A stretch of 64,000 nucleotides of DNA, from assembly GCA_028280845.1 (NCBI GenBank), contig JANQKZ010000045.1, positions 1-64,000 of the forward strand, in the 5' to 3' direction. This document shows positions 186 through 39,617 of the stretch, in pieces. Both the position numbers and the translations under genes were made by a program. This stretch comes from Opitutales bacterium. Lineage in GTDB: Bacteria > Verrucomicrobiota > Verrucomicrobiia > Opitutales > JABSRG01. The number at the start of each line of letters is the position of its first letter. Position 1 is the first letter of the stretch. A model generated the notes under the pieces. It had not been told where the DNA came from. It searched no databases and was given only the letters and a program-made list of their open reading frames with translations.

Positions 186-472
186 CTACTTGGACTGACT
201 GACTTTTCTTAACGAACAGACTGACTACTTTTGACTCTTGCTCAAAAAATTTTACGGGGTATGCGGGGTAGACTACCTTGAAGGTGGGTAGAATTAATAA
301 ATCTCATGAATAGACCGTCAAATCCTTTTTTGTTAAATTTTCTCCAGATGAATTTACGAAGCCTATTTCATCTTTAGATCCCAATTAGGGTTCATCTGAA
401 TTTGTGAATAAATCGGCAAAAACTTCTCCCTCCGTGCTTTGTGTCGATGAAATCGTGGTTATAGAAAAATCC

Positions 473-1837
473 TTATCCACGGGGAAAGTCAGGACTGACT
501 TCTATTTCCTCACCAGGATTAATCGTAATGGGTTCATTATTGGCGGGCACCTCATCGTTTAAATAGAGCTGGCAAGTGATGGGGGCTGAGCCATCCGGAG
601 CCACCCAATCGAATTTTCCTATTTCCACAAATGATAATGGCGTCCCTTTATCTTGAGATAAACCCGGGCCAATCCCTCGAATATATAACTTGTTACCAAT
701 TCCAATTAAGATGTTTGCAATGATACGGGCCGGCTTTTCGTCTGGCACCTCCGGCGGAGCCTCGGCGGAGGATTGAATGATCTTATCCACAGGAGACGGG
801 TCTTCGCTTTTCCGCTCAACGCCCCCCATGGCCTTCTCCAGCATCCGGCGTTCAGCTGGAAGAAGGTCTTCATCGTCAAACAAGTCTTCCGGCTCAGAGG
901 TGGGCTCGGGGTCAGGTTCAGCCTCAGCTGTCGGTCTGGTCTCAGGCGATGACAGCTCTTGATGCGTTGCTTTCCCGATAATTTCATCCGGTGACTCCAT
1001 GACGACCTCTGCCGCTTCCGGAAGGGATTCTCCCTGGGAGTCCGCTTCGATTGCTTCCGATTGCCCAACAGACGATTCAACTTCCGCCTCCGGGACAGCA
1101 TTGGCTGGGGCCTCAGTTTCCATTTCAACCAGATGAGTCAGCTGGTTTCCCCGGGTGCTCAGACTATCCAGAGAGGATTTTAACCCATCTACCTCAACGC
1201 GGAGGTCTTCCTCAAGCTGGCTTAATCGGTCTAAAGTCGATTGCGAGATCCCCTTGAGATCATCATACCCTTCCTGGAGTTGATCCCATCGCTGAAGAGA
1301 CTTGGCTTCGCGGGCCTCTAGATCCGTTTCCCACTTTTCCCAGCGTGCGGACAAGCCGGAGTCGAGAGCCTCCTGGAACGAACCAAGCTGACTCTTTAAC
1401 TCCTGGGTCAGGGTCAGCAAAACCTGCACGCCCTGCTCTTCATTCACCTGAAAGGATTTTAGCTTGTCATCCATAAGCGAAGCCAAGCCCTCATAGGCGG
1501 AAAAAGTCCGCTCGACTCGCTTGGATTCTTCCCGCTGGGCATCCACAATAGCATAAACTTCGCGCACCATATGGTTCATCCGCTCATGCACCGCCTCCAA
1601 GGCGTTCGCCTCGTTCTCCTCATGGAGTTTCTGTTTCAGGTAAAATTCGATGATGAAAGGGGCCACCAACAAGAGTGCTCCGACGATAACGCCAAACACA
1701 CAGAAACCGATCTGCCAGGAATTCAGGTCGCCCCCGTTTCGCATTAAGATAAAGACGGCAAGGCCTAAAAGGAGAATATCTCCCAATAAAAAGGGCCACT
1801 TGTTAATGGAAGGTGGGGTACGGGTGGTAACATCCAT
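473..1837 (-). CDS. Two-TM coiled-coil protein of unknown function
   Basis: I do not recognise this 454-residue protein. The N-terminus has two hydrophobic segments (about residues 14-32 and 41-67) that should place it in the inner membrane. A long charged helical region follows (about 70-235, many E/K/Q/L, likely coiled coil). Next comes an acidic Pro/Glu/Ala-rich linker (240-340). A compact C-terminal domain (about 360-454) contains the string NILIGIGNKLYIRGIGPGLS and a predicted beta-rich end. The layout suggests a membrane-anchored scaffold whose C-terminal domain sits far from the membrane. It lies downstream of trpS on the same strand, separated by about 100 bases. Start is an ATG. Confidence 0.7.
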   Translation of the reverse strand: MDVTTRTPPSINKWPFLLGDILLLGLAVFILMRNGGDLNSWQIGFCVFGVIVGALLLVAPFIIEFYLKQKLHEENEANALEAVHERMNHMVREVYAIVDAQREESKRVERTFSAYEGLASLMDDKLKSFQVNEEQGVQVLLTLTQELKSQLGSFQEALDSGLSARWEKWETDLEAREAKSLQRWDQLQEGYDDLKGISQSTLDRLSQLEEDLRVEVDGLKSSLDSLSTRGNQLTHLVEMETEAPANAVPEAEVESSVGQSEAIEADSQGESLPEAAEVVMESPDEIIGKATHQELSSPETRPTAEAEPDPEPTSEPEDLFDDEDLLPAERRMLEKAMGGVERKSEDPSPVDKIIQSSAEAPPEVPDEKPARIIANILIGIGNKLYIRGIGPGLSQDKGTPLSFVEIGKFDWVAPDGSAPITCQLYLNDEVPANNEPITINPGEEIEVSPDFPRG

Positions 1838-25638: not shown

Positions 25639-27123
25639 ATGCCCCAAGACTACCTTCCCGAGGAAAATCAATTAATTATCAATGATGGATTTGCTGCCAA
25701 GGGTGCATTTTATTTATCAATATTGTTAAACGAGGAATCTTCTCCCTCTGACAAAGCTGGAGCCCTTCTAAATATACTTGAAGATCTAGATAATATACTT
25801 ACCTCGATTTCAGCCGAGGAGCGTATAACGATAATGGATTGCCTAAATCAATCCCTCAGCAATGTCTCATCTGTGGATTTTGATAGCTTCAAACTTAACC
25901 CAGATAATTGCAATTTGGACTCAAGCTTAATCGATGGAACGACAATCAAGAGGGCCATCATTTCTGGATCCCCGAAGAATGAGAGTCCAACAGTTATTGC
26001 CCAAGGAAGATTGCACAGTGGCCTTGAATACATCTTCCGCACGGAATATACGTTTATGTCCAAGGATAGAGCCTTTTTGGAGGTCGTAAACTCCTCCTCC
26101 ACTGAAGTTTTGAGGTCCGTGCATCTTAACGACGGATATAACCAAATTGTATCTTTAAAGATTTCAACCCTGGAAGAAAGTGAAGACATCCTTTTCAGTA
26201 TTCGAATATCTAATCATTCCACCCATGATCCAGTTTTATGGTATCAGACTACAGTTTGGGGCTCCCAAGAATCCAGGAACTCGATGCCTTTCGCAGAGTC
26301 CTTAACACAGTCTTTTCGCAAAAAAAGGATCAACGAGAAGAAGGGGATTCTCAAGCCTGTAACTAATGAGCCTTTAACCATGGAAGATGTTACCCAGCTT
26401 AACTCCCTTCGAAACAAATACGCTGGGGAGAGGATTTTTATAATGGGAAATGGTCCAAGCTTGAACAACACACCGCTTGAGCTTCTAAAAGATGAGTACG
26501 TTTTCGGTTTGAATCGAGTAGGTTTGCTATTTGAGAGAATATCTTGGCGGCCTACATTTTTCACCGCGTTTGATATTAGGGTGGTTCCGGATAATAAAGA
26601 AGAGTTTCTCAATTTAGATATCCCTTATAAGTTCTTTTCAGCCAGGTACAAGACCTTATTCGGTAGAGATAAATTTCACTATTGGTACCATACAAAAGGT
26701 TTTTATGATGGATTTGAATCCTGCTTTAATAAAAACGCTATATACTCAGGTTTTGGCGGGGGCGGAACCATTGCCATAATAGCGACTGAATTGGCATTTT
26801 TGATGGGATTTCGAGAAATTTATCTAATCGGAACTGATGTATCATATACTATTCCACCAAACGTAATCCAATCAGGTAAGGACGAGTTTGGAAATGGATT
26901 CAAACTCAATCTCGAGAGCACCGAGGATAATGACCCAAATCACTTCGACCCTAGGTATTTTGGGAAGGGGAAGAAGTGGCATAACCCAAATGTCAGAGAT
27001 ATGAAAATCGGATTTTCTAGAGCTGCTTCCTATATCCAACAGAGGGGAGGGTCTCTCCTCAATGCAACGGTGGGCGGAGACTTGGATGAGGTTTCCAGAG
27101 TTAATTTCCGGGATCTTTTCTAA
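25639..27123 (+). CDS. MptE/DUF115 (Maf-like) domain protein
   Basis: A 494-residue protein. The first 240 residues are unrecognised and partly beta-rich. The remainder is a 6-hydroxymethylpterin-pyrophosphokinase-MptE-like/DUF115 domain. It starts with RIFIMGNGPSLNNTPLELL and contains ISWRPTFFTAFDIRV, FGGGGTIAIIATELAFLMGF, IYLIGTDVSYTIP and DPNHFDPRYFGKGKKWH. DUF115 occurs in Maf proteins that glycosylate flagellin with CMP-activated nonulosonic acids, so a glycosyltransferase role is likely here. The C-terminal half is closely similar to residues 55-275 of the protein at 35416-37329. The function is not proven. Confidence 0.78.
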   Translation: MPQDYLPEENQLIINDGFAAKGAFYLSILLNEESSPSDKAGALLNILEDLDNILTSISAEERITIMDCLNQSLSNVSSVDFDSFKLNPDNCNLDSSLIDGTTIKRAIISGSPKNESPTVIAQGRLHSGLEYIFRTEYTFMSKDRAFLEVVNSSSTEVLRSVHLNDGYNQIVSLKISTLEESEDILFSIRISNHSTHDPVLWYQTTVWGSQESRNSMPFAESLTQSFRKKRINEKKGILKPVTNEPLTMEDVTQLNSLRNKYAGERIFIMGNGPSLNNTPLELLKDEYVFGLNRVGLLFERISWRPTFFTAFDIRVVPDNKEEFLNLDIPYKFFSARYKTLFGRDKFHYWYHTKGFYDGFESCFNKNAIYSGFGGGGTIAIIATELAFLMGFREIYLIGTDVSYTIPPNVIQSGKDEFGNGFKLNLESTEDNDPNHFDPRYFGKGKKWHNPNVRDMKIGFSRAASYIQQRGGSLLNATVGGDLDEVSRVNFRDLF

Positions 27124-27133
27124 GGCTATATAT

Positions 27134-30100
27134 ATGAATGTCTTATACGATATTACGACTTTGGGGAAAATCCATTGTACACCCAAAGTAAAGCCAACAG
27201 GAATACACAAGGCCACCGAGGCATTGGGTATAGCAATAGGGAACCAGGAGAATATAAATTTATTTCTCTCATCGCACCCTCACCTTTTAGCACAAACCTT
27301 TAAATATTTAGAAGATACAGGCATATTCTCAACCGACCAATTCCTCCTTTCCGGCTTGCCGAACCCGTCAAGTGGTCACTACACAAAAATTGCAGCAAAC
27401 TCAGGAAAATTTAACTTCGGAAATTTAAAGCAATTCACTTCAGAATACTTCGCCAATAGTTACATTCCTGAAGAAGTTTTTAATTCAGGACTAATTGATG
27501 TTTATCACCTCAATTGGCGGGGGAATGATAAATTACCAGAACACAGTTTCCCCAATATAGTTCTAACTGTGTTTGATGTTATTGCCATCAAACACCCGGA
27601 ATGGTTCGTGAGACCTGGGCAATTAAACCTACATGGCCAGTACTTAAATACCTTCATTAAGTCAGTTAGACCCTGGCACACCATCGCCGTGAATACCGAA
27701 AGTGTAAAAAGGGATCTGCTTTCCCTTTTCCCTCATATTTCCATAGAACAAATTTTCGTAGTTCCCCTCGCAGTCTCATCTAAGTTTGGTGCCGTTCCCT
27801 CTTTTGACGAAATCGATGCTGTAAGGCTCAAATATAATATCCCGTCGGGCCGCAAATATATCCTTAGCGTAAATACCCTAGAGCCTCGGAAAAACACAAT
27901 ATCAGTTACTAAAGCATTTTCGATTTTGGCCCAGGAGTATGAAATAGATGATTGTTGCTTAGTTCTAGCTGGTTCAAAGGGTTGGCTTTCAGAAGACCTT
28001 TTGGCCCTCGATAATAATAGCTTCGGTAAAGGAAATGCTTCCATTCATATTACCGGGTATGTCGATGACGAGGATCTACCTACCCTGTATTCGGGTGCAT
28101 CCCTGTTTTGTTACCCCTCCCTTGATGAGGGCTTTGGGTTGCCCGTCTTGGAGGCAATGAGAGCCGGCGTACCTGTCTTGACCTCAAATTGCCCTCCCTT
28201 GAAAGAGACCGCCGGAGATGGAGCAGAATTTGCAGAGCCCATGAATGTAAATGAGCTAGCGGAAAAAATGTTCCAAATTCTTACTGAAGAAAAGACATCT
28301 ATTGCCCTTAAAGAACGAGGACTAAAAAGAGCAGAAACTTTTACCTGGGATTCCAGCGCAAAGAAAATGGTCGATGTATACCAGAAAATCACCGCGCGGA
28401 GAAAACCCGGTAATAAATCCTCCTTAAAAAACCTTATCCCTTTAAGCCGGGATCTCAATGAAAGTAAGACAGCATACAGAAACTCTGTCGTGGAAAATAA
28501 AAATAACCTAAAATTCATTTCGAACGAATATCAGGAGAGCCGTGTTTTCATTGTGGGAAACAGCCAGGGTATACCCACAGTGGACCTGCAACCCCTGCAT
28601 AAGGAATTCACATTTGCTTTAGACGGTTTCTATCTCGAATACGGAAATCTGGACTGGAAACCTTCTTTTTATTTAGCCCAAAACAATACCCAGGACCCGG
28701 AAATAATTCGGACGCTTAACGGGCTTACAGGTTCGAAGTTCTTTTTTGAAGATAGCTTTAGAGGCTACCTTAGGGATGGTCCCGGAGTATTTTATTTTTC
28801 CCGAGATTCCAACCATAAAGAAACTTCCGATTTAGCAGCTTATGACTTCGAATTGGCTGACGGACTACAGGGACCAGGCTGTCCTCTGTGTTCAGCCATT
28901 CAGTTAGCTGTGTTCATGGGATTCAGTGAAATTTACCTCTTGAATTGCAGGCTCGAATACACGGCATGGCATGAAAGCTTCCGTAAACTTATGGAACAAA
29001 AAGGCAGATACATTGCCATTAATGCCTTTAACGGGAACAATCCCATTTACCATCAGTTTGATTACTACTCAACTTTCTTAGAAGAGCTCATCCTAAAATT
29101 CAATCGACTGGAACGGGCCACCCTGGATGAAACTCAAGCTATTTCCTTCCTATTGGATTCTGATTATTGTGATAAAGGAACTATGGTCGATGTTGGAGCT
29201 CACCGAGGTCATAGTGCTAAGCACTTTAGCCACAAAAATTGGACAATCTTCTGCTTTGAACCGGACCCTGCAAACCGGGAACATCTCCTCAGAAGGTTTG
29301 GTAAAGCATGGAATGTAATCATCGATAACAGAGCAGTCAGTGACCATGAGGCAGAGGATGTATCCTTTTTTACGTCGGAGGAGAGTACGGGGATTAGTGC
29401 CCTACACTCCTTTCGGGACTCCCACACATTATCTAATAGAGTCAATGTAACAACCGTCAAAAATCTTCTCGAAGAGTATGGGATCGAATCGGTAGATTTC
29501 CTAAAAATTGATGTTGAAGGATTCGACTTCAACGTGCTCAAAGGCGTCCCTTGGGAGAAAGTCAGGCCTGAAGTGATTGAGTGCGAGTTTGAGGATGCTA
29601 AAACTCTGAAGATGGGGCACACTTGGAGAGATATTGCTCAATTTCTAAAGGAAAAAGGATATACCATCTACATCAGCGAATGGCACCCCATTACTCGATA
29701 TGGAATCCCTCATGATTGGAACCGCTTGGTCCCCTGGCCCGAAAAAGATGTTCCTAGTGAATCATGGGGCAACATTCTTGCTTTTAAAAACGACCCAGGC
29801 TACGGAGCAATTTCAAATGCTTTCAGAAATGTAATTTCGTTTAATCCGAAAACTGAACCCCCTACTCTATACAAGGAATCAGAACCAAATAAACCTAATA
29901 AGTGGACTCCAATTTCCGATTCATGGGATGTCGACAACTCCAATGGGTTAGTGATTTTGGGAAATGGCCCTTCCTTAAAGAATATAGACCTAAACTTACT
30001 TTCTTCACTCGAAACAGTGGGAATGAATGCAGCTTATCGCCATTGGGAAGCAATTAATTGGTTTCCCACCTATTATTGCTGCCTTGATTCCGTCGTCGTC

Positions 30101-33100
30101 GAGTCGCATGCAAAGGAAATATTAAGTTTGATCAATAATCGGAACGAAAATGGCATAAAACTGTTTTTCTTACATAGTAATATTTTAGAGGTATATCCGG
30201 AGATTGAGAAAATCCCTATAGTTTTGATCTTCGAGAAAGTCTATCAAGATCCCCCTTTTAAAGATCTAAAACACACTACAACTGGGGCTGGTGCGGCAAT
30301 CCTTGGGATGGCTTTAGGTTATAACCATATCTTTCTTCTCGGGGTTGATTGTAATTATGTTGAGCAGATAAATGAGGCAGTAGTAGTGGAAGACCAGACG
30401 TTGGAAATTACTTCTACCCCAGAGAATAACCCTAATTATTACTTTGAAGGCTACCAGGTCGCAGGCGATAAATTTCAAATCCCCAATTCACTCCCGAATC
30501 TACATAAGAAAAGTTGGGAGAACGTATATACAATTGCCAAAAACCTTGGAGTGGAGGTAACGAATTGCAACAGCCAAAGTCGTGTAGATGTTTTCAAATT
30601 CGCTGATTGGAGAGAATTACCTGAGCTCCCTGTCCTGCCTCAGGCAATCGTTCAAAAGGAAGAGAACGAATCCCTTGTAGTAAATGCCAAAAAGATAGCT
30701 CAGGTTTCGTCTCAGACCATCGTATTTCAAAATACTATCAATGTCATAGTAACTAACCTCCAGCCTAAAAAGGGATTTTCTATTTCTTTTATGTTCGAGG
30801 CCGGAAAGTCTACTCTTCTACCGCTTACTTGGGAATGTGAAATTAATGGAGAGAAAGTCGACTTAATCTTAAATCCAAGAACTATCCCATACTTATACAC
30901 CCTCGATCTCCCCTTTCAATTAACAGGCCGAAATTGTAGTATCAAAATATCCAATCCACGTCCCACCTTTAGCACAAGAAATTCTAAGGATACCAATACA
31001 TGTCGTGTTTTTTGCTTTAGGTTTCACTCCGAAGATCAGACCCCCTTGCCGTTACCATTGTTCAATGGCATAAATTACCTTCTTTCTAATCAGGATGTTG
31101 CAGAAGCGATTTTGGGGAAAACGATGAAAAGTGCTTATTTTCATTACTGTAATTTCGGTTTCAAAGAGGGGCGCAGGATATTCCCGGACATCACTCTAAA
31201 TGGAAACTCAGGTACATTAGAGCAATATGTGAAAGCTACTTTTGATGGTGTAACCTATTTGAGCGAGAATCCTGACGTTCGTGAATCTGTTTTAAAAGGA
31301 AAATCTCCTTCAGGATTACACCACTTTCTCAATCATGGTAAAATTGAAGGAAGAACTCCTCCCATTCAAAAAAGCGGTTCGGTAATCCTTGGAACTTCCA
31401 CCGATTACTTTAACCAAAAATTGGAAGATTGCACAAATGAAATTGAACAACTTCGAACTGCACTGAACGAAGAGCGCAATAGAACGGCTCTAAACAAGGC
31501 CCAGCAGGAAAAGCAAATCCATGAATTAACCATAGATGCTAAAAGAAGCCACAACTGGAACACTCACCAAGAGCAAGATATCCTTACCTTATTCAGTGAG
31601 ACTCGAGGCTTGAAACGAAAATTGGAAGCCGCGAAAAAAGCAGCGGCACTCACATTAAAAAGGGAGATTGATAAGATTTGGAATCAAATCACAGATAAAG
31701 TTAAATCCCTCGAATTTAAATTGAGTAATAATGAGTCTCTTATTTCGTCCCTGCAACTCAGAGTCTCCTCCCTCACCTCCTTCATCGAAGAAAAAAACTC
31801 CTATTTAGAGAAAGAAGTTCAGCTTGGTAAGAACCAACACCTACACTTAAATAAAAAGCTTTTAGACTTTGAGAATACTGCAATTTCAAAGCTGACCACC
31901 CTTAAGCGAGAACTAAATGAGAGAGCGCATCGTTGGGAAAAAATTATCCTAGATTTTCAGGAGATCAAAAAGAATTCCGCAGACCATTTTTCATCCCTAT
32001 CGAAGAAGGTTTCGGAGAACCAAAATTATACCGAAAATTCCGTAAAGAATATAAAGGAAGTCTACGAGAAGCAATTCGCGTCTATCAGGAGGGATTTAAA
32101 TGCAAACAAGGAACAGGGTAGAACTACACAGGAGCAACTTTCGAAGTCTTTTTCCACCTCTGTGGAACAGGCCAAGAAGATAGAAGAAACTATACAGGAG
32201 GAAACAAAGCGGAACGATGCCCTTAAATTGGCTCTTAATGAAACACAGGACCAGTTCCACCAAATTGCCAATAGCATAAAGAAACAATTTGTCACTGAAT
32301 TATCCTCTCAGAAAAGACTTTTAGGTAACTTAATTAAAACTGAGCGGTCAGAACGAATTCTCGATTTTGCTAGAAGAGATTCAACAGGGCAATTCCCACA
32401 AAAAATAATAATCCAAATTACAATCCCTCGTTGCGGAAGCACCTGGGTGATGGATTCCTTAAGGTGTCATCCCGCAATTTTTATGGAGCCGACAGCTCTA
32501 ATATTTAAACAATTAAACTTGATGGGAGGAAGATACCCTTCGGGCCTATCTAACCTGGATGATGCTGTTAAACCTATTGAAGTTAACAGTGCAAGGAATA
32601 TTGGGGTTAAAATCCCAGAATTCACTGTCAAAGATTTAGATAAAGAGATACTGGGCCCTATGACTTCCGAGCCCTATGCTTTGGAAAAAGTTCACCCACA
32701 ATTCTTCGACTTTCAAGCAGACGCGTTTTTGAAAAAAGTAGAGGAGTTCGAATCCAAATACCGAGTTCACTTCGTTTTCATTTATCAGTATCGCGATCCT
32801 AAGGCAGCCATTCTTTCATTCCTACGTTATAAAAAACGCGATTCTAAGTGGTTCAGAAATTTCCCTGATAATGAAGTCTTTGAATACTATTATAAATCCT
32901 ATGAATCCCTATTAACCCTAGCTCGGAAGAAGAAAGGAATTGTGGTGACTCTTGAGGGAATAAAACAAAATCATAAAGGTATTCTTACAAAAATATTTGA
33001 TTCGCTTTGGGAGCCCAATCCAGCATCCGAATCTATAGCATCTTACGCAAATAATGTTACCCGTCGAAGTAAACGGTTAAAATCGACTTTCCTCCAAGAG

Positions 33101-33217
33101 GAATCACTTCAAAAAAAGGAAGACAATTTTGAAGCTCTGTTCATGCAACATGCGGAACAAATGAAAGCCATTTACAAGTGTTATCACTCCTTGAATAGAT
33201 TTAAGCAGCTTTCATAA
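27134..33217 (+). CDS. Giant multidomain glycan-assembly protein (GT4, DUF115, FkbM, DUF115, coiled coil, sulfotransferase-like)
   Basis: 2027 residues from ATG 27134; the frame opens earlier, but that start lies inside the previous gene. Order: GT4 (1-425; YILSVNTLEPRKNT, DEGFGLPVLEAMRAG); DUF115-like (465-650; VFIVGNSQGIP, a degenerate GNGPSL); FkbM methyltransferase (670-890; MVDVGAHRGHSAKHF, FLKIDVEGFDFNVLKG); DUF115 (935-1160; VILGNGPSLKNI); a beta-rich module (1180-1300); two NPDV/EGR-type repeats (about 1309-1349 and 1369-1409); a long coiled coil (1425-1740); and a sulfotransferase-like end (1755-2027) with the P-loop-like IPRCGSTWVMDSLRCHP. No signal peptide. Probably a cytoplasmic multi-enzyme scaffold building and modifying one glycan unit. 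Confidence 0.82.
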   Translation: MNVLYDITTLGKIHCTPKVKPTGIHKATEALGIAIGNQENINLFLSSHPHLLAQTFKYLEDTGIFSTDQFLLSGLPNPSSGHYTKIAANSGKFNFGNLKQFTSEYFANSYIPEEVFNSGLIDVYHLNWRGNDKLPEHSFPNIVLTVFDVIAIKHPEWFVRPGQLNLHGQYLNTFIKSVRPWHTIAVNTESVKRDLLSLFPHISIEQIFVVPLAVSSKFGAVPSFDEIDAVRLKYNIPSGRKYILSVNTLEPRKNTISVTKAFSILAQEYEIDDCCLVLAGSKGWLSEDLLALDNNSFGKGNASIHITGYVDDEDLPTLYSGASLFCYPSLDEGFGLPVLEAMRAGVPVLTSNCPPLKETAGDGAEFAEPMNVNELAEKMFQILTEEKTSIALKERGLKRAETFTWDSSAKKMVDVYQKITARRKPGNKSSLKNLIPLSRDLNESKTAYRNSVVENKNNLKFISNEYQESRVFIVGNSQGIPTVDLQPLHKEFTFALDGFYLEYGNLDWKPSFYLAQNNTQDPEIIRTLNGLTGSKFFFEDSFRGYLRDGPGVFYFSRDSNHKETSDLAAYDFELADGLQGPGCPLCSAIQLAVFMGFSEIYLLNCRLEYTAWHESFRKLMEQKGRYIAINAFNGNNPIYHQFDYYSTFLEELILKFNRLERATLDETQAISFLLDSDYCDKGTMVDVGAHRGHSAKHFSHKNWTIFCFEPDPANREHLLRRFGKAWNVIIDNRAVSDHEAEDVSFFTSEESTGISALHSFRDSHTLSNRVNVTTVKNLLEEYGIESVDFLKIDVEGFDFNVLKGVPWEKVRPEVIECEFEDAKTLKMGHTWRDIAQFLKEKGYTIYISEWHPITRYGIPHDWNRLVPWPEKDVPSESWGNILAFKNDPGYGAISNAFRNVISFNPKTEPPTLYKESEPNKPNKWTPISDSWDVDNSNGLVILGNGPSLKNIDLNLLSSLETVGMNAAYRHWEAINWFPTYYCCLDSVVVESHAKEILSLINNRNENGIKLFFLHSNILEVYPEIEKIPIVLIFEKVYQDPPFKDLKHTTTGAGAAILGMALGYNHIFLLGVDCNYVEQINEAVVVEDQTLEITSTPENNPNYYFEGYQVAGDKFQIPNSLPNLHKKSWENVYTIAKNLGVEVTNCNSQSRVDVFKFADWRELPELPVLPQAIVQKEENESLVVNAKKIAQVSSQTIVFQNTINVIVTNLQPKKGFSISFMFEAGKSTLLPLTWECEINGEKVDLILNPRTIPYLYTLDLPFQLTGRNCSIKISNPRPTFSTRNSKDTNTCRVFCFRFHSEDQTPLPLPLFNGINYLLSNQDVAEAILGKTMKSAYFHYCNFGFKEGRRIFPDITLNGNSGTLEQYVKATFDGVTYLSENPDVRESVLKGKSPSGLHHFLNHGKIEGRTPPIQKSGSVILGTSTDYFNQKLEDCTNEIEQLRTALNEERNRTALNKAQQEKQIHELTIDAKRSHNWNTHQEQDILTLFSETRGLKRKLEAAKKAAALTLKREIDKIWNQITDKVKSLEFKLSNNESLISSLQLRVSSLTSFIEEKNSYLEKEVQLGKNQHLHLNKKLLDFENTAISKLTTLKRELNERAHRWEKIILDFQEIKKNSADHFSSLSKKVSENQNYTENSVKNIKEVYEKQFASIRRDLNANKEQGRTTQEQLSKSFSTSVEQAKKIEETIQEETKRNDALKLALNETQDQFHQIANSIKKQFVTELSSQKRLLGNLIKTERSERILDFARRDSTGQFPQKIIIQITIPRCGSTWVMDSLRCHPAIFMEPTALIFKQLNLMGGRYPSGLSNLDDAVKPIEVNSARNIGVKIPEFTVKDLDKEILGPMTSEPYALEKVHPQFFDFQADAFLKKVEEFESKYRVHFVFIYQYRDPKAAILSFLRYKKRDSKWFRNFPDNEVFEYYYKSYESLLTLARKKKGIVVTLEGIKQNHKGILTKIFDSLWEPNPASESIASYANNVTRRSKRLKSTFLQEESLQKKEDNFEALFMQHAEQMKAIYKCYHSLNRFKQLS

Positions 33218-33230
33218 CTGAAAGAATAAA

Positions 33231-33926
33231 CTACTCCATAGAATGGGCCCGGTGTATTTCCTTTGTCAGGGCAAACAGCTCTGCCACTACCCAACCCGTT
33301 TGATCATCTATATCCTGGGACTCCATTGGAGGGGTAGGGAACAGAATGGGGGTTTTACCAATCCTCGCCCGAGTCGCCTCAAAACTTGAAGAACTAAAAA
33401 TATATAGATTTGAGTTTTCTTCGTACCACGGCTCCAAATCCTGTGTGCGGATTAGGTTTTCAGGATCGTGATTCACAGGTGAACCGTTATCTCGATAAAA
33501 TCGTGTTTGATAACGATTCACGGTAAACAAACTATCCTTTCCCTCTGCCAATCCATTTTGATATTCCTTTAAAGCCAGTCTGATAGACTCAGAACTCAAA
33601 AGGGGATTGGTCGTATGTGTCATCAAGTAGGTTTCAGCTGAAATAGCTTGAATATCATCCTTTATTATTGAGTTCATACTCACAAAATCACCGCAGATAT
33701 CTGGCTTCCGATCTCGTATCAAGACTTTCTCCGAATCGAATAAACCATTTGAAGCCAATATATCTCTTGCATCGGTGTTGATGACTATCTGATCGATTTC
33801 ATTAACGCTTAGTAAAGTGCCAAGAATCCACCGAAATAGTGGCTTACCCGCAAATTCTCGAAAATTCTTCCCCTTAACCCGCTCACTATGGGCCTTCATG
33901 GGAAGTAAAGCTACGATTTTCTTCAT
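33231..33926 (-). CDS. CMP-sugar synthetase (NeuA/acylneuraminate cytidylyltransferase family)
   Basis: A 231-residue nucleotidyltransferase. The N-terminal ALLPMKAHSERVKGKNFREF is the CTP-binding signature of CMP-NeuAc/CMP-Kdo synthetases, and FAGKPLFRWILGTLL follows. Asp residues in VINTDARDIL and the THTTNPLLSS segment match the family. It activates an acidic ulosonic or related sugar with CMP. Its ATG overlaps the stop of the upstream cytidylyltransferase-like gene by four bases. It converges on the giant glycan protein, 13 bases away. The sugar is unknown; the neighbouring aldolase may make it. Confidence 0.85.
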   Translation of the reverse strand: MKKIVALLPMKAHSERVKGKNFREFAGKPLFRWILGTLLSVNEIDQIVINTDARDILASNGLFDSEKVLIRDRKPDICGDFVSMNSIIKDDIQAISAETYLMTHTTNPLLSSESIRLALKEYQNGLAEGKDSLFTVNRYQTRFYRDNGSPVNHDPENLIRTQDLEPWYEENSNLYIFSSSSFEATRARIGKTPILFPTPPMESQDIDDQTGWVVAELFALTKEIHRAHSME

Positions 33927-34600
33927 ATGTCTTGATTGGGAGAATTGTTTAATTCGCTTATTAAGGTGTCCATGCGCTCTAGGACGTGGTAGTCCAAATT
34001 TTCAGGAAAACCCACCTCCATGAAGTGAGGATTTACACCACTGCGAGTCTTGGTCTTTCGAAACACCTCCGCGTTAAATAAATAAAAAGTTGAGTTCTCT
34101 TCCATATAAGGAACCATCCGGTGTGTTCGCTGCAACTTTAGCGGATGGTGATTAACTGGAACATAGCCAAAAGCTTCCTCTCTCCAAAACCGAGCCCTTA
34201 CTCGGTTAGCCCCAATAACGGCATCATATGGAGAATTCATTTTGAGGAAGTCGAACCCTTTCTCAACTGTTGTAGACTGAAGAAAAGGGAAGGTGACATG
34301 AATTTGTCCAACCGGTTCATGGCGTATTCTCGAATAATCAAGAAAATAGGAGATTAGATTGTCAACTGAGGTATGGGGATCAATCAAATCGGGATCGCGT
34401 AAATAGGGTATGACATGACTAAGATTCGCGTCATGCTGTATCGATTCAATTAACTGGGGAGAGTCTGTATCAACGAATAATTTAAAACCGGAAAACCGCG
34501 ACAAAGTATGGCGCCACAACGGCTGCCCTTGGAACTCTACATGGTTTATGCTTGGATTAATATTCGATTGAAATTCAATCGGAATAAAAAGCACTCTCAT
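33923..34600 (-). CDS. Divergent cytidylyltransferase-like protein
   Basis: 225 residues, related to its downstream neighbour: the ELNNS end, THRMVPYMEENSTFYLFNAE and QLHVTFPFLQS-type segments line up with the neighbour's RTQDLEPWYEENSNLYIFSS and THTTNPLLSS. The N-terminal CTP-binding motif is degenerate: MRVLFIPIEFQSNINPSINH lacks the usual R-x-x-S-K-x-x-x-x-K. Either it uses a different nucleotide contact, or it is a non-catalytic subunit of a heteromer with the 33231-33926 product. It is coupled on both sides by four-base overlaps (ATGA) with the aldolase and the synthetase. Confidence 0.7.
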   Translation of the reverse strand: MRVLFIPIEFQSNINPSINHVEFQGQPLWRHTLSRFSGFKLFVDTDSPQLIESIQHDANLSHVIPYLRDPDLIDPHTSVDNLISYFLDYSRIRHEPVGQIHVTFPFLQSTTVEKGFDFLKMNSPYDAVIGANRVRARFWREEAFGYVPVNHHPLKLQRTHRMVPYMEENSTFYLFNAEVFRKTKTRSGVNPHFMEVGFPENLDYHVLERMDTLISELNNSPNQDI

Positions 34601-35355
34601 TTCGAATTCCTCAAATCAGCCCTAATTTTGGATAAGGCTTCTAAACTCCTTTGCTGAATAATTGTAATATCCAAACTCAAGGCAATAAGTTGATATCCTT
34701 CCTGAAGACGGAGGAGAACTTCTTTAGGATCAGGTTGAACAACATGAATCCCTGCTATTACTCCTTTGTCCTTACAGGTTTTTAGTATTTTATTTCGAGC
34801 TTCTATATAATCCGGATGATCAAATTGGGCAGCAATCCCCATTGAGGCCGATAAATCGTAAGGCCCTATGAAAACGGCATCAATACCCTCTACCGATAAG
34901 ATATCTTCGAGATTTTGGACTGCTTCGATGTGTTCAATCTGAACTGAGACCAAAAGCTCCTGATTTGCATTCTGAAAATGCTCCTCTACCTTCAGGCCAT
35001 ATTCGTTTGCCCTGCAAAATCCTACCCCGCGTTTTCCTAACGGCGGGTAATATACTGCATCCACTAAAAGTTCTGCCTCCTCCCTGGTCGTAACGAGGGG
35101 GCAAATTATTCCTTTGGCTCCAGCATCGATATAACGCTTCACCAGCGCATAGTCTACCCCATGGAGACGAACAAAAGGCATGCATTCAGGGTTTCCAGAT
35201 TTAATTGCCTGAAACATTGTTTGGGTCTCTGGTAGATCCACCGCCGAATGTTCAGCGTCAACACAAAGAAAATCATATCCACATTCAGCCATCATTTCAG
35301 AAATAATGGGGCTTCCAGAATTTATCCAACTACCGATCAGTACTTTGCTCAACAT
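34597..35355 (-). CDS. HpcH/HpaI-family pyruvate aldolase
   Basis: A 252-residue class II aldolase of the 2-keto-3-deoxy-L-rhamnonate aldolase (RhmA)/HpaI type. The TIM-barrel motifs are IGSWINSGSPIISEMMA, DFLCVDAEHSAVDL (metal-adjacent Glu/His), PFVRLHGVDYALVKRYIDAG, GIICPLVTTREEAE, VSVQIEHIEAVQNLEDIL (metal Glu) and DAVFIGPYDLSASMG. Such enzymes reversibly condense pyruvate with an aldehyde to give 2-keto-3-deoxy acids. Sitting first in an overlapping operon with two CMP-sugar synthetase-like genes, it may make an ulosonic acid for activation rather than degrade one. That role is inference. Confidence 0.85.
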   Translation of the reverse strand: MLSKVLIGSWINSGSPIISEMMAECGYDFLCVDAEHSAVDLPETQTMFQAIKSGNPECMPFVRLHGVDYALVKRYIDAGAKGIICPLVTTREEAELLVDAVYYPPLGKRGVGFCRANEYGLKVEEHFQNANQELLVSVQIEHIEAVQNLEDILSVEGIDAVFIGPYDLSASMGIAAQFDHPDYIEARNKILKTCKDKGVIAGIHVVQPDPKEVLLRLQEGYQLIALSLDITIIQQRSLEALSKIRADLRNSK

Positions 35356-35415: not shown

Positions 35416-37329
35416 TTAGGACTCCTTGGAGTCTTGAATAGCCTTTAACTCTTTTAACATCTCTTCTTTTTCAGCGTTCAACTTCTCCACATCCTGTAAC
35501 AGGCCATGGATTCGCTTATTTTTGAGGCGTTCAATCCTTTTCGCTTCCGCTGAAACCTCCTTAAGGGATGCTGGTAGGCCCATTTTTGATCTTAATCCCT
35601 CTGCATTTTCCATTGAGAGTAAACAGGTTACAGAAGAAAGATTGGTTGTGGAGATGGGCTGACGGAAGGCTAGTATATTGCCCCATGCATCCTCATCACT
35701 AATTTTACAGGGCCATTGTTTCAGACCCTTCCAAGAATGTTTCATTCCATAGCGTTCTATAGGGTGCCACTCGCTGATATAAAGGAGATATCCCTGATCG
35801 ACCAAAAATTGGCAAACATCAGTATAGGTGTATCCAAGAGGTATGGTCTTTTTCTCATCAAATTCACAAACAATGAATTCAGGATGAAATTTCTTCCAAT
35901 TATTACCTTTTAGTACCATGAAATCAAAACCCTCCGTGTCTACCTTTAGAAAATTAATTTCAGGAATCTTGTTTCGGCATAAGAAGGACGACAGGGTGTG
36001 AACTGAGACTGTGGCCTTTTCCTTATGAGAATCAAGAAACGGAGACAGTCCGCTTACCCCACTACTAACTTCAGATCCGAAAAAGGCCACTTCACTTTCC
36101 TCCCTATCAGAAATCGCACAAGAGAATACTTGATAATTCCAATCTTGTTTTATTCTTCGCTGGAGGATCTCCCTATTGTCGGGATCAGGTTCACATGAAA
36201 CCACATTCCAACCATTTTCCGCAAATGGAATCGATGAATTACCATGGTGAGCGCCCACATCAACCATGGTTCCTTGGGTTTCGGATAAGTGTAGTATTAT
36301 TTCACTCTCATCAACTTGAACCTTACTTTCCCTTTCGAAGGGACCTACTAAGAATTCATTAATCTCAGGTAAGATAAAACCGCTACTCTCGGAAGTAGCT
36401 TTCTCCTCGAAAGTGAATTGGTTAGAATCGCTTTTCCTGTAAAGATCTCCTGATGGAAACAAACTCAAAAAGTCTACCCGCTCAAACACCTCAAGTTTTC
36501 CTCCCACTGTAGAATTGAAAATTCTCCTGCCGGCCCTAGAAATCCCAAATTTGCATTGCTCATATCCCTGTATCATCCGGGGCACATTCGGATCATGCCA
36601 TTTTCTGCCTTTACCAAAATAACTCGGGTCAAAATGGTTGGGATCATCATCAGCAGTACTTTCTAATCGGAAACCAATTCCACTCCCGAACTTGTCATCG
36701 CCCGAATCCAATACAGTATCAGGAATTGTATAATTGGCGTCACAACCAATTAGGTAAATCGGATCGAAGCCCATATGAAATGCAAGCTGAATAGCACTTC
36801 CGGTCACCGACCCAGCACCACGGATGCCACCGGTAGCATCGGTCGCAAACCTGGCCTGCTCTCCGGTTGCAGTACAGTGATGATACCAATATACATCGTT
36901 GTCGTCATCCAGTAACCCACGAAACCGCTCTGGATAAAATTTGGTTACCCCAGACAAACCCATTATTTCATCAGCGACATCAGATCCGACCCGCCAATCC
37001 ACGACAGTGTAAAAAGTAGGTCTCCAAGATATCTTTGGGTATATTAAGTAAAATCGATTGGAGCAAAATGTGAATTCATTCTTCAATAATTCCAAAGGCA
37101 TTTTATTTAGGCTAGGTCCGTTACCTACTACAAATATTCGTTTACCTTTGAAACTATCTTTAAGGGTGGCCAGTTTATCTAGATCCTCTTGAGGGGTGGG
37201 AATACACTTGTATACATCATAGAATCGTTCTCTCTCCAGTGCCCACGAATCCCGGTATTCCCGGCTTCCAGGCTGCCCCTTAAGGTTTTTTTCAATCAAA
37301 TTCCAAGCTGCATTTAGATCACTAGACAT
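35416..37329 (-). CDS. DUF115 (Maf-like) and FkbM methyltransferase fusion with coiled-coil tail
   Basis: 637 residues. DUF115 domain at about 55-275: RIFVVGNGPSLNKMPLELL, ISWRPTFYTVVDWRV, GAGSVTGSAIQLAFHMGF, IYLIGCDANYTIPD, DPNHFDPSYFGKGRKWH. FkbM domain at about 355-560: MVDVGAHHGNSSIPFAENG, VVSCEPDPDNREIL, FLKVDTEGFDFMVLKG, WHPIERYGMKHSW. The last 50 residues are a charged helix (likely coiled coil). Both domains resemble those in the proteins at 25639 and 27134, so it is a trimmed version of the giant protein's centre. The predicted role is glycosyl transfer plus methylation of one residue in the same glycan. Confidence 0.82.
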   Translation of the reverse strand: MSSDLNAAWNLIEKNLKGQPGSREYRDSWALERERFYDVYKCIPTPQEDLDKLATLKDSFKGKRIFVVGNGPSLNKMPLELLKNEFTFCSNRFYLIYPKISWRPTFYTVVDWRVGSDVADEIMGLSGVTKFYPERFRGLLDDDNDVYWYHHCTATGEQARFATDATGGIRGAGSVTGSAIQLAFHMGFDPIYLIGCDANYTIPDTVLDSGDDKFGSGIGFRLESTADDDPNHFDPSYFGKGRKWHDPNVPRMIQGYEQCKFGISRAGRRIFNSTVGGKLEVFERVDFLSLFPSGDLYRKSDSNQFTFEEKATSESSGFILPEINEFLVGPFERESKVQVDESEIILHLSETQGTMVDVGAHHGNSSIPFAENGWNVVSCEPDPDNREILQRRIKQDWNYQVFSCAISDREESEVAFFGSEVSSGVSGLSPFLDSHKEKATVSVHTLSSFLCRNKIPEINFLKVDTEGFDFMVLKGNNWKKFHPEFIVCEFDEKKTIPLGYTYTDVCQFLVDQGYLLYISEWHPIERYGMKHSWKGLKQWPCKISDEDAWGNILAFRQPISTTNLSSVTCLLSMENAEGLRSKMGLPASLKEVSAEAKRIERLKNKRIHGLLQDVEKLNAEKEEMLKELKAIQDSKES

Positions 37330-37462: not shown

Positions 37463-38881
37463 TTATTTCACCTTCCTGAATTCTGTTTCCACTTTGCTGA
37501 TAATATCGGAGTAGATTTTGCCCCAATCCCTCGGAGATGGTTTGGATTCCGACGTCAACCTCCCAAATTTTAGTTTTGCTTCCACAGACTCTTCCCAACG
37601 GTTCATTTCAGCTAAGATTCTAGATAACAACTCAAAGCAAGGAGAAAAATTGGGATTTAATTTAATTGCTGTGAGAGCCGAACTTAAGGCATCTTCAAAC
37701 TGAGCATTGATATGTTGAAGGGAGGCAAGCTGGAAGTACCTGTCTGGGTTTTCTGGTTCAAGGTCAACAGCAGACTTTAGGGCGATTACAGCTTCCTCAT
37801 TGCGTCCCAACCTTTGCATTAATGTTCCCTTTTGGCTAAGGAGAATTGGATGATTTGGATTCCACCCCAATACTCTTTCCAAAACCTCAATCGCATCTTC
37901 CAAACGACCAAGCTGAAACAAGCAATTTAAATAGGGCGGATAAAAAGCCAAATTCTGCTCATCTAGGTATATTGCCTTTTGATGGAATTCTAAGGAATCA
38001 TTCCACTTTCCCAACTGAAAGAAAAGGACGCCCAAGCGGTGACAAACAGTAGCTTCATCTTCAATTCGATCGGATTGATCAATCTGCTCGTGGAGCTCTT
38101 TCAGAATTAAATTTAATCTCCGCTTCAATGTTTGATTGGAGTCTCCCTCCAATTCTTGGGGGAGTTTCAAAACGTCATCTAAGTCAGATCCGTATGAACT
38201 CAACCTAGCAGTTTTTGGAATATCGGCCGCTGGAAAGTAGGCTTTTAATGCGTCATCTAAGTTGTCAAAAACCTGCATCTGGCCGTCTTTTAGGAGGATA
38301 CCGTGCTCGCAAAAATCTCTTACAATCGCGGCACTATGCGAAACCATGATTACATTGCAGGTTGATCGTTTTTCATCCAAGGTATTCCTAGCTTTCTCCC
38401 GGAAATGCCTATCTCCGACAGAAGTCAATTCATCAATAAGTAGATATTCGAAATCAAAAGCCATACTTAGGCTGAAATTGAGGCGCCCATTCATACCCGT
38501 TGAATAGTATCCTATGGGCTCTTCAAAGTACTTCCCCAATCCTGACAACTCCTTAATGGTTTCGAGGGTGTCCTCAATTTTAACCTTGTTCAACCCATAA
38601 ATCCTGCAAACCAGATCGCAGTTTTCCCTACCTGTCAGGTGACCGATAAATCCGCCGGCAATCCCAAGAGGCCAACTCATAGTTTTATCACAGATTACCC
38701 GCCCACTATCAGGATAATCGATCCCTCCTAAAATCCTTAAAAGCGATGACTTTCCTGCCCCGTTTGGCCCTAAAATGGCAATATTTGCATTCTCAGGAAA
38801 ATCGACAGTTATATCCTTAAATATATAATGTCTGCCATTATTAATCCGGTAGGATTTCGTTAAATTTTCGATCCGAAACAT
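37463..38881 (-). CDS. Polysaccharide ABC exporter ATPase with TPR tail (KpsT/Wzt-like)
   Basis: 472 residues. The ATPase (1-225) has Walker A ILGPNGAGKSSLLRILGG, a signature region reading STGMNGRLNFSLSMAFDF as in KpsT-type proteins rather than LSGGQ, Walker B YLLIDEL with SVGDRHF, and the switch histidine in VSHSAAIV. Residues about 280-460 contain several tetratricopeptide repeats, for example ALKSAVDLEPENPDRYFQLA and ALTAIKLNPNFSPCFELL. Wzt proteins may carry a glycan-recognition domain at this place; a TPR array is unusual and may bind protein partners. It begins one base after the permease stop. Confidence 0.88.
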   Translation of the reverse strand: MFRIENLTKSYRINNGRHYIFKDITVDFPENANIAILGPNGAGKSSLLRILGGIDYPDSGRVICDKTMSWPLGIAGGFIGHLTGRENCDLVCRIYGLNKVKIEDTLETIKELSGLGKYFEEPIGYYSTGMNGRLNFSLSMAFDFEYLLIDELTSVGDRHFREKARNTLDEKRSTCNVIMVSHSAAIVRDFCEHGILLKDGQMQVFDNLDDALKAYFPAADIPKTARLSSYGSDLDDVLKLPQELEGDSNQTLKRRLNLILKELHEQIDQSDRIEDEATVCHRLGVLFFQLGKWNDSLEFHQKAIYLDEQNLAFYPPYLNCLFQLGRLEDAIEVLERVLGWNPNHPILLSQKGTLMQRLGRNEEAVIALKSAVDLEPENPDRYFQLASLQHINAQFEDALSSALTAIKLNPNFSPCFELLSRILAEMNRWEESVEAKLKFGRLTSESKPSPRDWGKIYSDIISKVETEFRKVK

Positions 38882-38882
38882 A

Positions 38883-39617
38883 TCAGCGGAGGCGAATGGT
38901 TCCTGAAGTCAATAGCTTCTTCTCTTTCCATCTGTAAGCCAGGATCCCCACAAACAGTGAGGAGAAGGATACCAAGCTAAGGTAAGCAATCGATTGAAAA
39001 GGCATTTCATAATTCAGGAACAGGTTAACCCTCAGGAATTCAATTACATGAAGAACAGGATTCCACTGCAGGTAGACTATGTATCTATCTGGAACTTCTA
39101 TGGTTGGAAAGAATACCCCGGAAATAAGGAAAAGAGGCCTAATCAATATGGGCATAATCTTCTCAGACTCCCGGAACAGAGGTCCAATTACAGCCATAAT
39201 TAAGCCCAACCCTAAACAAAACAGGAAAAATAATGCAAGGATGCCTAGTGTACCAGAAATACTGCTGAGTGCGAATTGAACTCCAAATGTATAAAAAACA
39301 CTTAAGATAAAAACACCTGCGACGAAATAGATTGCAAATTCTAGACAAAGTCGAGCAAGGACACAATGGTAAGGTTTAACGTGCCGATAGGTGAATAAGC
39401 TATGGTTGGCACTTACCGAGGTGAGGGACTGCATCAAAGTTCCTGAAAACAAAAGGAAGGGAATAATCCCGGAACAAAAAAAGATGGGAAAGGAAAGACC
39501 TGCGATATCACTTGACCCAAAGGCCATTCGAATAATTGAAAACGCTCCTACGTAACCGAGAGGCTCAAGGATCGCCCAGGAATACCCCAATTTATACCTC
39601 CCAAACCGGCTTTTCAT
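38883..39617 (-). CDS. Polysaccharide ABC exporter permease (KpsM/Wzm-like)
   Basis: ABC-2 type inner-membrane permease, 244 residues from the first ATG, with about six hydrophobic segments. It carries the conserved N-terminal KSRFGRYKLGYSWAILEPLG amphipathic entry motif and the late GVFFPTIEVPDRYIVYLQWN and NPVLHVIEFLR segments of KpsM-type proteins. It moves the finished, lipid-linked glycan across the inner membrane with the ATPase encoded next. Start problem: the frame is open for about 30 further codons upstream and reads LNREREILS-like residues typical of the family (actual: NRERDILSALIIRE), but has no ATG, GTG or TTG. Confidence 0.88.
   Translation of the reverse strand: MKSRFGRYKLGYSWAILEPLGYVGAFSIIRMAFGSSDIAGLSFPIFFCSGIIPFLLFSGTLMQSLTSVSANHSLFTYRHVKPYHCVLARLCLEFAIYFVAGVFILSVFYTFGVQFALSSISGTLGILALFFLFCLGLGLIMAVIGPLFRESEKIMPILIRPLFLISGVFFPTIEVPDRYIVYLQWNPVLHVIEFLRVNLFLNYEMPFQSIAYLSLVSFSSLFVGILAYRWKEKKLLTSGTIRLR

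Follow-up and report, generated by a model that had tools for sequence, protein, structure and literature searches.

Within the window (the whole stretch of 64,000 nucleotides that was analysed), one reading frame encodes P0001, a protein that joins, in this order, a GT4 module, a degenerate DUF115/Maf-like domain, an FkbM module, a GT42-like domain (the second DUF115), a beta-rich stretch, two NPDV...EGR repeats, a coiled coil and a sulfotransferase. With moderate confidence, we read P0001 as a one-chain polymerase or assembly enzyme in which a coiled coil serves as ruler and the sulfotransferase adds a terminal cap to a glycan that leaves through the neighbouring ABC-2 transporter.

The frame occupies positions 27134-33217 of the forward strand (2027 amino acids and a stop), and an ORF check found no stop inside it, exactly as an earlier note on this DNA had described. 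The remaining two frames of the same strand include 125 and 168 stops across the gene, their longest open runs being 73 and 66 codons, so a 2027-codon frame is not a chance event. An alternative ATG at 27062 would give a protein of 2051 amino acids; 27134 is the likelier start because it lies 10 bases past the stop of the preceding gene. The modules that the earlier note had listed (GT4, two DUF115 domains, FkbM, two repeats, a coiled coil and a sulfotransferase-like end) were all recovered by profile, BLAST or sequence analysis, and family matches were found for modules other than GT4 and FkbM. Its claim that a single chain combines a transferase, a methyltransferase, a sulfotransferase and a ruler-like coiled coil is thus supported at the level of modules.

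Modules of P0001

The GT4 module includes the EX7E motif, EGFGLPVLE (residues 332-340, positions 28127-28153). The FkbM module is full-length, matching PF05050 with 73 bits (profile positions 1-172 of 173) and TIGR01444 with 81 bits against a cut-off of 37.7; its SAM loop is VDVGAHRGHS (685-694), and it is 44-45% identical to the FkbM modules of two relatives (L052 and L054).

Table 1 Features of P0001 and its gene neighbourhood. Residues are numbered along P0001, nucleotides along the window.
Feature	Residues	Nucleotides	Strand	Evidence
GT4 glycosyltransferase module	1-424	27134..28405	+	Pfam Glycos_transf_1 (aa 231-398, 1.8e-30); GT4 matches of PDB phmmer
DUF115-like domain 1, degenerate	~453-640	28490..29053	+	Homology to other DUF115 ORFs; alignment column counts
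FkbM methyltransferase module	~670-888	29141..29797	+	PF05050 (aa 686-844, 4e-20); TIGR01444 (1e-22)
Putative GT42/CstII-like CMP-sugar transferase domain	~923-1165	29900..30628	+	CstII profile, structure comparison, PHROG
Beta-rich linker domain	~1175-1310	30656..31063	+	Sequence inspection
Two NPDV...EGR repeats	1315-1347, 1375-1407	31073..31354	+	Sequence positions
Coiled coil	1413-1722	31370..32299	+	Heptad score, proline-free run, periodicity
PAPS-type sulfotransferase domain	~1757-2020	32402..33193	+	Sulfotransfer_1, phmmer, Foldseek
Multi-module glycosyltransferase, 1268 aa		19250..23056	-	Two GT2 modules and a weak GT4-like stretch
FkbM methyltransferase, 283 aa		23557..24408	+	Domain scan
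GT4 glycosyltransferase, 384 aa		24436..25590	+	Domain scan
DUF115 (MptE-like) protein, 494 aa, upstream of and co-directional with P0001		25639..27123	+	PF01973 (2.3e-14)
CMP1, CMP-sugar (PseF-like) cytidylyltransferase		33231..33926	-	CTP_transf_3 (3e-18); below PseF equivalog cut-off
Second cytidylyltransferase-like protein, diverged		33923..34600	-	CTP_transf_3 (0.004, below cut-off)
HpcH/HpaI-family 2-keto-3-deoxy aldolase		34597..35355	-	2.5e-35; counterpart in L062
DUF115 + FkbM protein, 637 aa, paralogue of P0001 aa ~430-890		35416..37329	-	Pfam, BLAST
ABC exporter ATPase (TagH/Wzt-like), C-terminal TPRs		37463..38881	-	Best with TagH/Wzt models
ABC-2 polysaccharide export permease (KpsM/Wzm-like)		38883..39617	-	PF01061 (1.6e-14); KpsM model, 126.6 bits

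The first DUF115 domain gave no Pfam match (PF01973) in the full-length scan. By BLAST it is homologous to the DUF115 + FkbM neighbour (32% over 157 amino acids, 9e-25) and, within the bacterium's order, to many DUF115 proteins. The earlier note had called its motif degenerate and that of the second domain intact, and the two do read GNSQGIP (475-481) and GNGPSLK (943-949). In the first domain the motif set (GNGPSL, GxD, NHF...Y) is missing P, S, N and D as well as the final N; Arg replaces the Asp of GxD, and the NHF block is deleted. Among 28 aligned sequences it is the sole or near-sole exception at the columns for P, S, N, D, Y and N. With nearly every conserved residue gone, this domain is probably structural.

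The second domain retains the whole motif set except the His and Phe of NHF, its further motifs being GVD (1070-1072), NPNYYF (1099-1104) and LHKKSW (1123-1128). Profile comparison with the sialyltransferase CstII gave 1.8e-8 at about 18% identity over the alignment, with GNGPSLK and GVD in register with the CMP-binding motif and GxD of CstII. The His of LHKKSW, a candidate for the catalytic His (His188 in CstII), is found in 13 of 14 members and lies at a helix start, as would be expected of that residue; the CstII profile alignment stopped short of it. An AlphaFold2 model of the domain (pLDDT 88.2) matched CstII in Foldseek (2.5e-7) and in VIA (Z 14.1, rmsd 4.0 over 200 residues, 1ro7), and Maf 5mu5 with a VIA Z of 12.9. 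A PHROG sialyltransferase was matched at 2e-8, and PF01973 (aa 937-1077) at 7e-5 and 23.1 bits, under the Pfam gathering cut-off of 34.6. The label MptE/DUF115 (Maf-like) given in the earlier note stands as distant homology; judged by profile and model, the domain is better described as a putative GT42/CstII-like CMP-sugar transferase, not as MptE or strictly Maf. Its donor is probably a CMP-activated ulosonic acid, as judged only from genomic association with cytidylyltransferases.

The beta-rich stretch found no family in the Pfam scan and resembles the matching region of L056 at chance level; a carbohydrate-binding role for it would be a guess. The NPDV...EGR repeats are matched in other large proteins (L036-L042). 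The coiled coil, put at about 300 residues in the earlier note, is an unbroken heptad segment of 310 residues within a proline-free run of 344; its hydrophobic periodicity is 4.86, whereas 500 shuffles reached at most 1.74, and as a single continuous helix it would be about 46 nm long. A convincing transmembrane segment was not found in P0001, in contrast to several analogues that have one.

When the C-terminal domain was scanned alone, it passed the Sulfotransfer_1 cut-off (23.6 bits versus 22); in the full-length scan, Sulfotransfer_3 at 1764-1931 (0.009, 16.7 bits) failed its cut-off of 27. The domain includes a 5'-PSB-like motif, IPRCGSTW (1764-1771), and a 3'-PB-like motif, YRDPKAAILS (1886-1895), and matches the CurM sulfotransferase by phmmer (0.0077). 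Its structural model is moderate (pLDDT 58). The first 23 Foldseek matches of this model (best 1.5e-5) consist only of sulfotransferases and the related retinol dehydratase, and unrelated P-loop kinases appear at equal Z among its VIA matches. APS kinase, which is required for PAPS, is encoded in the genome.

Gene neighbourhood and relatives in other genomes

P0001 lies in a low-GC surface-glycan island of about 20 kb (19.2-39.6 kb) that also encodes an ABC exporter, CMP-sugar genes, an aldolase and other transferases. The domain scan recognised no carbohydrate-binding module (CBM) at the C-terminus of the exporter ATPase, where TPRs are found in its place.

The full architecture was not found in the genomes of 35 relatives, in 372 genomes of its own order (searched with the C-terminal 1131 amino acids), or in genome contigs searched with the whole protein. 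When the sulfotransferase domain was used to search the class, the phylum, plasmids and viral contigs, one relative was returned (L051); in phages, the middle modules had two weak matches. The nearest relative of the sulfotransferase, in L062 of the same order, is a separate gene encoding 252 amino acids without a coiled coil, located beside an exporter; the same run of genes encodes Wzm-like and Wzt-like proteins, counterparts of the aldolase (59%) and of CMP1 (67%), and a DUF115 protein. Homologues of CMP1 are present within the fetched loci at six of the ten GT42-subgroup loci (L053, L055, L056, L058, L060 and L061), and ABC polysaccharide exporters adjoin the GT42-subgroup genes in L055, L060 and L063; the GT42-like subgroup, CMP-transferases and ABC exporters are found side by side in several phyla.

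Such loci encode other giant proteins, of 1615-2748 amino acids, in which a glycosyltransferase block is followed by a helical or coiled stretch and then by a sulfo- or methyltransferase. P0003 is arranged as DUF115-GT4-TM-coiled coil-sulfotransferase and P0002 as DUF115-GT2-DUF115-TM-helical stretch-sulfotransferase; we claim no coiled coil in P0002, as a simple power spectrum gave no significant heptad periodicity there. The giants of L053 and L054 end in a coiled coil and Methyltransf_24. A modifying enzyme past a long coiled coil thus recurs with unrelated types, namely two sulfotransferase subgroups and Methyltransf_24. Relatives with similar building logic come from cyanobacteria, Alphaproteobacteria, Phycisphaerae and Anaerolineae. 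The earlier note had named a module order conserved in other genomes as support; homologous parts and a similar building logic were found there, the identical order was not. We tentatively suggest, with less confidence than for P0001 itself, a widespread and undescribed kind of one-chain assembly line that combines GT42-like CMP-ulosonate transferase modules with other glycosyltransferases and methyltransferases, a coiled-coil ruler and a far-end cap enzyme from unrelated families (sulfotransferases, in at least two recruitments, or Methyltransf_24); chain-end sulfation would then fix the length.

Comparison with known systems

WbbB of Klebsiella pneumoniae O12 combines polymerisation, termination and length control of an ABC-exported glycan in a single protein (PMC11231755). 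Like P0001, it carries polymerising glycosyltransferases and a capping enzyme on one chain with a coiled coil; unlike in P0001, the Kdo cap is added by an N-terminal GT99 and GT102/GT103 are C-terminal, whereas in P0001 the order is reversed, the glycosyltransferases belong to other families, an FkbM module is present and the cap position is taken by a sulfotransferase. ORF6 of K. pneumoniae O7, composed of a methyltransferase-kinase, an immunoglobulin-like CBM, a coiled coil and two GT2 modules (PMC11231755), is likewise a large multi-module protein with terminator and polymerising glycosyltransferases on opposite sides of the coiled coil, but its catalytic modules differ, its order is reversed and its modification is methyl-phosphate rather than the predicted sulfate. 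The exact module order of P0001, a layout unknown to the earlier note, did not turn up elsewhere in the searches described above, yet WbbB and O7 ORF6 are arrangements of this kind. WbdD of E. coli O9a resembles P0001 in using a coiled coil as a molecular ruler with the modifying enzyme at its far end, but it has no polymerase and adds a methyl-phosphate cap.

For single modules, CstII and Cst-I (CAZy GT42) share the fold and the CMP-binding GNGPS motif with residues 923-1165 but are free-standing and act on lipo-oligosaccharide. Maf/MptE-like proteins (PF01973) are distantly homologous to both DUF115 domains, and 5mu5 is among the VIA matches; P0001 differs from them in falling under the Pfam cut-off, in its degenerate first domain and in lacking a visible flagellar context. 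In the ABC-dependent O-antigen cluster of Aeromonas salmonicida, a sulfotransferase, ORF19, lies between Wzt and WbbB (PMC4483657); in contrast to that of P0001, it is a separate, unfused protein of 216 amino acids with unproven function.

P0001 shares with WbdD, WbbB and O7 ORF6 an extended coiled coil, glycosyltransferases opposite the modifying enzyme and a neighbouring ABC exporter. In terminated O-antigen systems a C-terminal CBM of the exporter ATPase reads the cap, and the P0001 locus differs in encoding an ATPase without one; we therefore class P0001 as working like these proteins and not as a proven member. No documented sulfate cap, and no described case of a sulfotransferase with a coiled coil or an O-polysaccharide, was found in the open-licence literature searched.

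Proposed mechanism and alternatives

In the mechanism that we infer, including the identity of donor and acceptor, sulfate as cap rather than decoration and length control, the N-terminal half would be a synthesis block whose GT4 and GT42-like modules add sugars, with the neighbouring aldolase and cytidylyltransferase supplying the probable CMP-ulosonic acid donor. The FkbM module would O-methylate a sugar, with the degenerate DUF115 domain as a structural partner; this methylation is probably not terminal, since FkbM lies on the glycosyltransferase side of the coiled coil. The coiled coil would oligomerise P0001 and hold the sulfotransferase at a distance of up to about 46 nm from the synthesis block, so that only chains long enough to span it would be sulfated, and thereby capped and fixed in length, as by methyl-phosphate or Kdo with WbdD and WbbB.

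Alternatively, as the earlier note suggested, a one-chain polymerase might add methyl and sulfate to every repeat, the coiled coil being an oligomerisation or docking scaffold that sets no length. Many sulfotransferases modify internal sugars. The position of FkbM within the synthesis block, the free-standing sulfotransferase of L062 and the exporter ATPase without a cap-reading module are all consistent with this alternative, which we nevertheless consider less likely: the recurrence of unrelated modifying enzymes beyond a long coiled coil argues against it, as does the rule of the known systems that the enzyme distal to the coiled coil is the terminator. By analogy, the likelier substrate of the module past the coiled coil is the chain end, not each repeat. 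Several observations weigh against the ruler-and-cap reading: the missing cap-reading CBM, the lack of a sulfate cap in the literature searched, the frequency of internal sulfation, the position of FkbM on the glycosyltransferase side, the moderate sulfotransferase model, the lack of a convincing TM segment in P0001 and the helical stretch of P0002 without significant heptad periodicity.

The DUF115/Maf-like domains, with the VIA match to 5mu5, and the PseF-like cytidylyltransferase could also suit a Maf-kind enzyme that transfers a short decorated oligosaccharide onto flagellin or another protein. We regard this as improbable, given that the second DUF115 domain fits CstII better and that the neighbours are polysaccharide-export genes; the flagellar reading was set aside because no flagellin or flagellar genes were found among the window genes scanned. 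A group-2-like capsule polymerase with a KpsMT exporter and no chain terminator appears just as improbable. The permease scores best with KpsM, but no KpsM score reaches the equivalog cut-off, and TagH/Wzt models give the ATPase its best scores; a group 2 identity of the exporter was set aside because the poly-Kdo linker synthases KpsC/KpsS (PF05159) are absent from the 97.7% complete genome. Finally, the failure to find an identical architecture might suggest separate genes fused by an assembly or sequencing error, a concern that the earlier note had raised. Such an artefact is very improbable, because comparable fusions are present in independent assemblies (L053, L054, L059 and L060); the single uninterrupted frame and the similar GC and GC3 of all modules also argue against it.

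Length control by a coiled-coil ruler and a chemical cap has been worked out in Klebsiella and E. coli for a small number of serotypes, whose caps are methyl, methyl-phosphate or Kdo. A sulfotransferase as cap enzyme would be new; known rulers carry a methyl-, kinase- or sugar-adding one. If the capping reading of P0001 is true, the ruler-and-cap principle would come to include sulfation and a CMP-sugar transferase fold, for which we found no such proteins described. P0001 offers a directly testable system in which coiled-coil length can be related to glycan length within one polypeptide.

Reading frame and modules of P0001

P0001 is encoded by one uninterrupted frame of 2027 residues, and the remaining two frames of its strand are stop-rich throughout. 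The start lies 10 bases past the stop of the upstream gene; an alternative start at 27062 would give a longer protein. The module list in the earlier note proved right, and P0001 is a real, unusual protein.

Positions of P0001 modules and of features in the window and in locus L062
Feature	Position	Strand	Pfam match
P0001	27134-33217	+
GT4	aa 231-398		1.8e-30, over cut-off
DUF115 domain 1	aa about 453-640
FkbM	aa 686-844		4e-20, over cut-off
MptE-like (DUF115 domain 2)	aa 937-1077		7e-5, under cut-off
Coiled coil	aa 1413-1722
Sulfotransfer_3	C-terminus		0.009, under cut-off
Low-GC stretch	19250-39617
Aldolase-cytidylyltransferase genes	33231-35355	-
Second cytidylyltransferase-like	33923-34600	-
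Exporter ATPase	37463-38881	-
Aldolase-cytidylyltransferase genes, L062	11962-13933
Two further sulfotransferases, L062	342-1193 and 5975-6931	-

DUF115 domain 1 has homology to a large number of DUF115 proteins. When 28 domains were aligned, it stood alone or almost alone in departing from the consensus at six features: the GNGPSL Pro and Ser, a conserved Asn, the Asp of GxD (replaced by Arg), the NHF...Y segment (deleted as a whole) and the final Asn. Because of these losses the domain is most likely non-catalytic. DUF115 domain 2 belongs to a distinct subgroup in which NPNYFF...H..SW replaces NHF. A 14-member profile of this subgroup matched CstII (1.8e-8), which was also the first match of the AlphaFold2 model (pLDDT 88, pTM 0.87) in Foldseek (2.5e-7) and VIA (Z 14.1; Maf 5mu5, Z 12.9), and PHROGs independently assigned a sialyltransferase. 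Given these matches, we name it a predicted GT42-like domain, not MptE or Maf.

The coiled coil is one unbroken heptad segment inside a 344-residue proline-free run. Its hydrophobic periodicity (peak near 3.57 residues) exceeded that of all 500 shuffles, and as a single helix it would be about 46 nm long. No convincing transmembrane segment was evident in P0001. Scanned by itself, the C-terminal domain passed the Pfam cut-off for Sulfotransfer_1, and both PAPS-site motifs are present; its sole close relative, in locus L051, is over the Sulfotransfer_3 cut-off. Top Foldseek matches of its moderate AlphaFold2 model (pLDDT 58) include human tyrosylprotein sulfotransferase and Stf0. In VIA, unrelated P-loop kinases equal sulfotransferases in score, so the fold match is supportive and by itself not decisive.

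A low-GC glycan island

From about 20 to 40 kb, the window has a GC content of 0.40-0.42, versus 0.47-0.54 in the flanks. The low-GC stretch coincides with glycan and exporter genes and looks like an exchanged surface-polysaccharide locus. Besides P0001 it encodes a multi-module GT2, FkbM, GT4 and DUF115 proteins, two cytidylyltransferase-like proteins, an HpcH/HpaI aldolase, and an ABC ATPase and permease. Its DUF115-FkbM gene is a paralogue of the middle part of P0001. The second cytidylyltransferase-like protein is diverged, overlaps the first and is possibly inactive or of other specificity. The best models were TagH/Wzt for the ATPase and KpsM for the permease, all under equivalog cut-offs. 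KpsC/S are absent from the source genome, which contains APS kinase and O-antigen-ligase-like (Wzy_C) genes.

The HpcH/HpaI aldolase and PseF-like cytidylyltransferase (CMP1) stay together in two genomes of the order, that of the window and that of L062, where a YhcH/DUF386 gene joins them. A pathway that uses the aldolase to make a CMP-activated ulosonic acid is possible. Instead of an aldolase, the neighbours of the CMP1 homologues in loci L055, L056, L058 and L060 are a 2-hydroxyacid-dehydrogenase-like gene (an assignment tested in L060) and a gene assigned to SDR by inspection, which suggests a different sugar-acid pathway.

Relatives and giant analogues

The same gene was found in none of the genomes searched: 35 relatives, 372 genomes of the order (queried with the C-terminal 1131 aa) and the genome contigs (whole protein). 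Nor did any other protein of its class have a PF01973 match at E <= 1e-6 in a frame of >901 residues. Ten loci were found to contain the GT42-like subgroup; they come from Phycisphaerae, Anaerolineae, Proteobacteria and one cyanobacterium, and six of them have CMP1 homologues; ABC polysaccharide exporters adjoin it in L055, L060 and L063.

L062 carries, unfused and in one run, a permease, ATPase, sulfotransferase relative, YhcH-family gene, aldolase (59% identity to that of the window), CMP1 (67%) and DUF115 gene. P0001 may thus be a portion of a cluster of this kind that has become fused in a single gene. The two further sulfotransferase genes of L062 point to a multiply sulfated glycan there. 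NPDV...EGR repeats, of which P0001 has two, also form multi-copy arrays in L036, L038, L041 and L042, in InlB-repeat-like proteins (open frames of about 2250-2460 aa) from one genus of the order.

Module order of giant analogues, several of which have a transmembrane segment (TM)
Locus	Length	Modules
L053	2056 aa	GT2-DUF115-GT4-TM-coiled coil-GT42-like-coiled coil-GT42-like-coiled coil-Methyltransf_24
L054	2748 aa	GT2-GT42-like-GT2-GT42-like-FkbM-TM-coiled coil-Methyltransf_24
L059 (P0003)	1615 aa	GT42-like-GT4-TM-coiled coil-Sulfotransfer_1
L060 (P0002)	1963 aa	DUF115-GT2-DUF115-TM-helical stretch-Sulfotransfer_1

The periodicity of the P0002 helical stretch was not significant. By inspection, the P0002 and P0003 sulfotransferases have a common GHHKCA motif and that of P0001 differs, which suggests separate recruitment.

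Relation to ruler and terminator proteins

Coiled-coil proteins serve as rulers in ABC-dependent O-antigen synthesis; in every case characterised, the end away from the polymerising GTs carries the terminator (PMC11231755). P0001 shares this geometry, with its sulfotransferase where the terminator would be. Computation establishes its modules, geometry and context; we infer that the sulfotransferase would put on sulfate as a chain cap, that P0001 would control glycan length and, likewise, which sugars its modules would use. Cap-reading Wzt typically carries a C-terminal CBM, whereas the window ATPase has TPR repeats fused in that place, which may dock the assembly enzyme rather than read the glycan. 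What speaks most strongly against counting P0001 as a strict member of this group is the missing exporter CBM, and P0001 is therefore placed as working like ruler/terminator proteins.

The layout was unfamiliar to the earlier note; since one-chain polymerase/terminators are already known, P0001 is less alone than the note suggests. What is new is its set of modules, the placing of a sulfotransferase at the capping position, and the recurrence of this logic across phyla.
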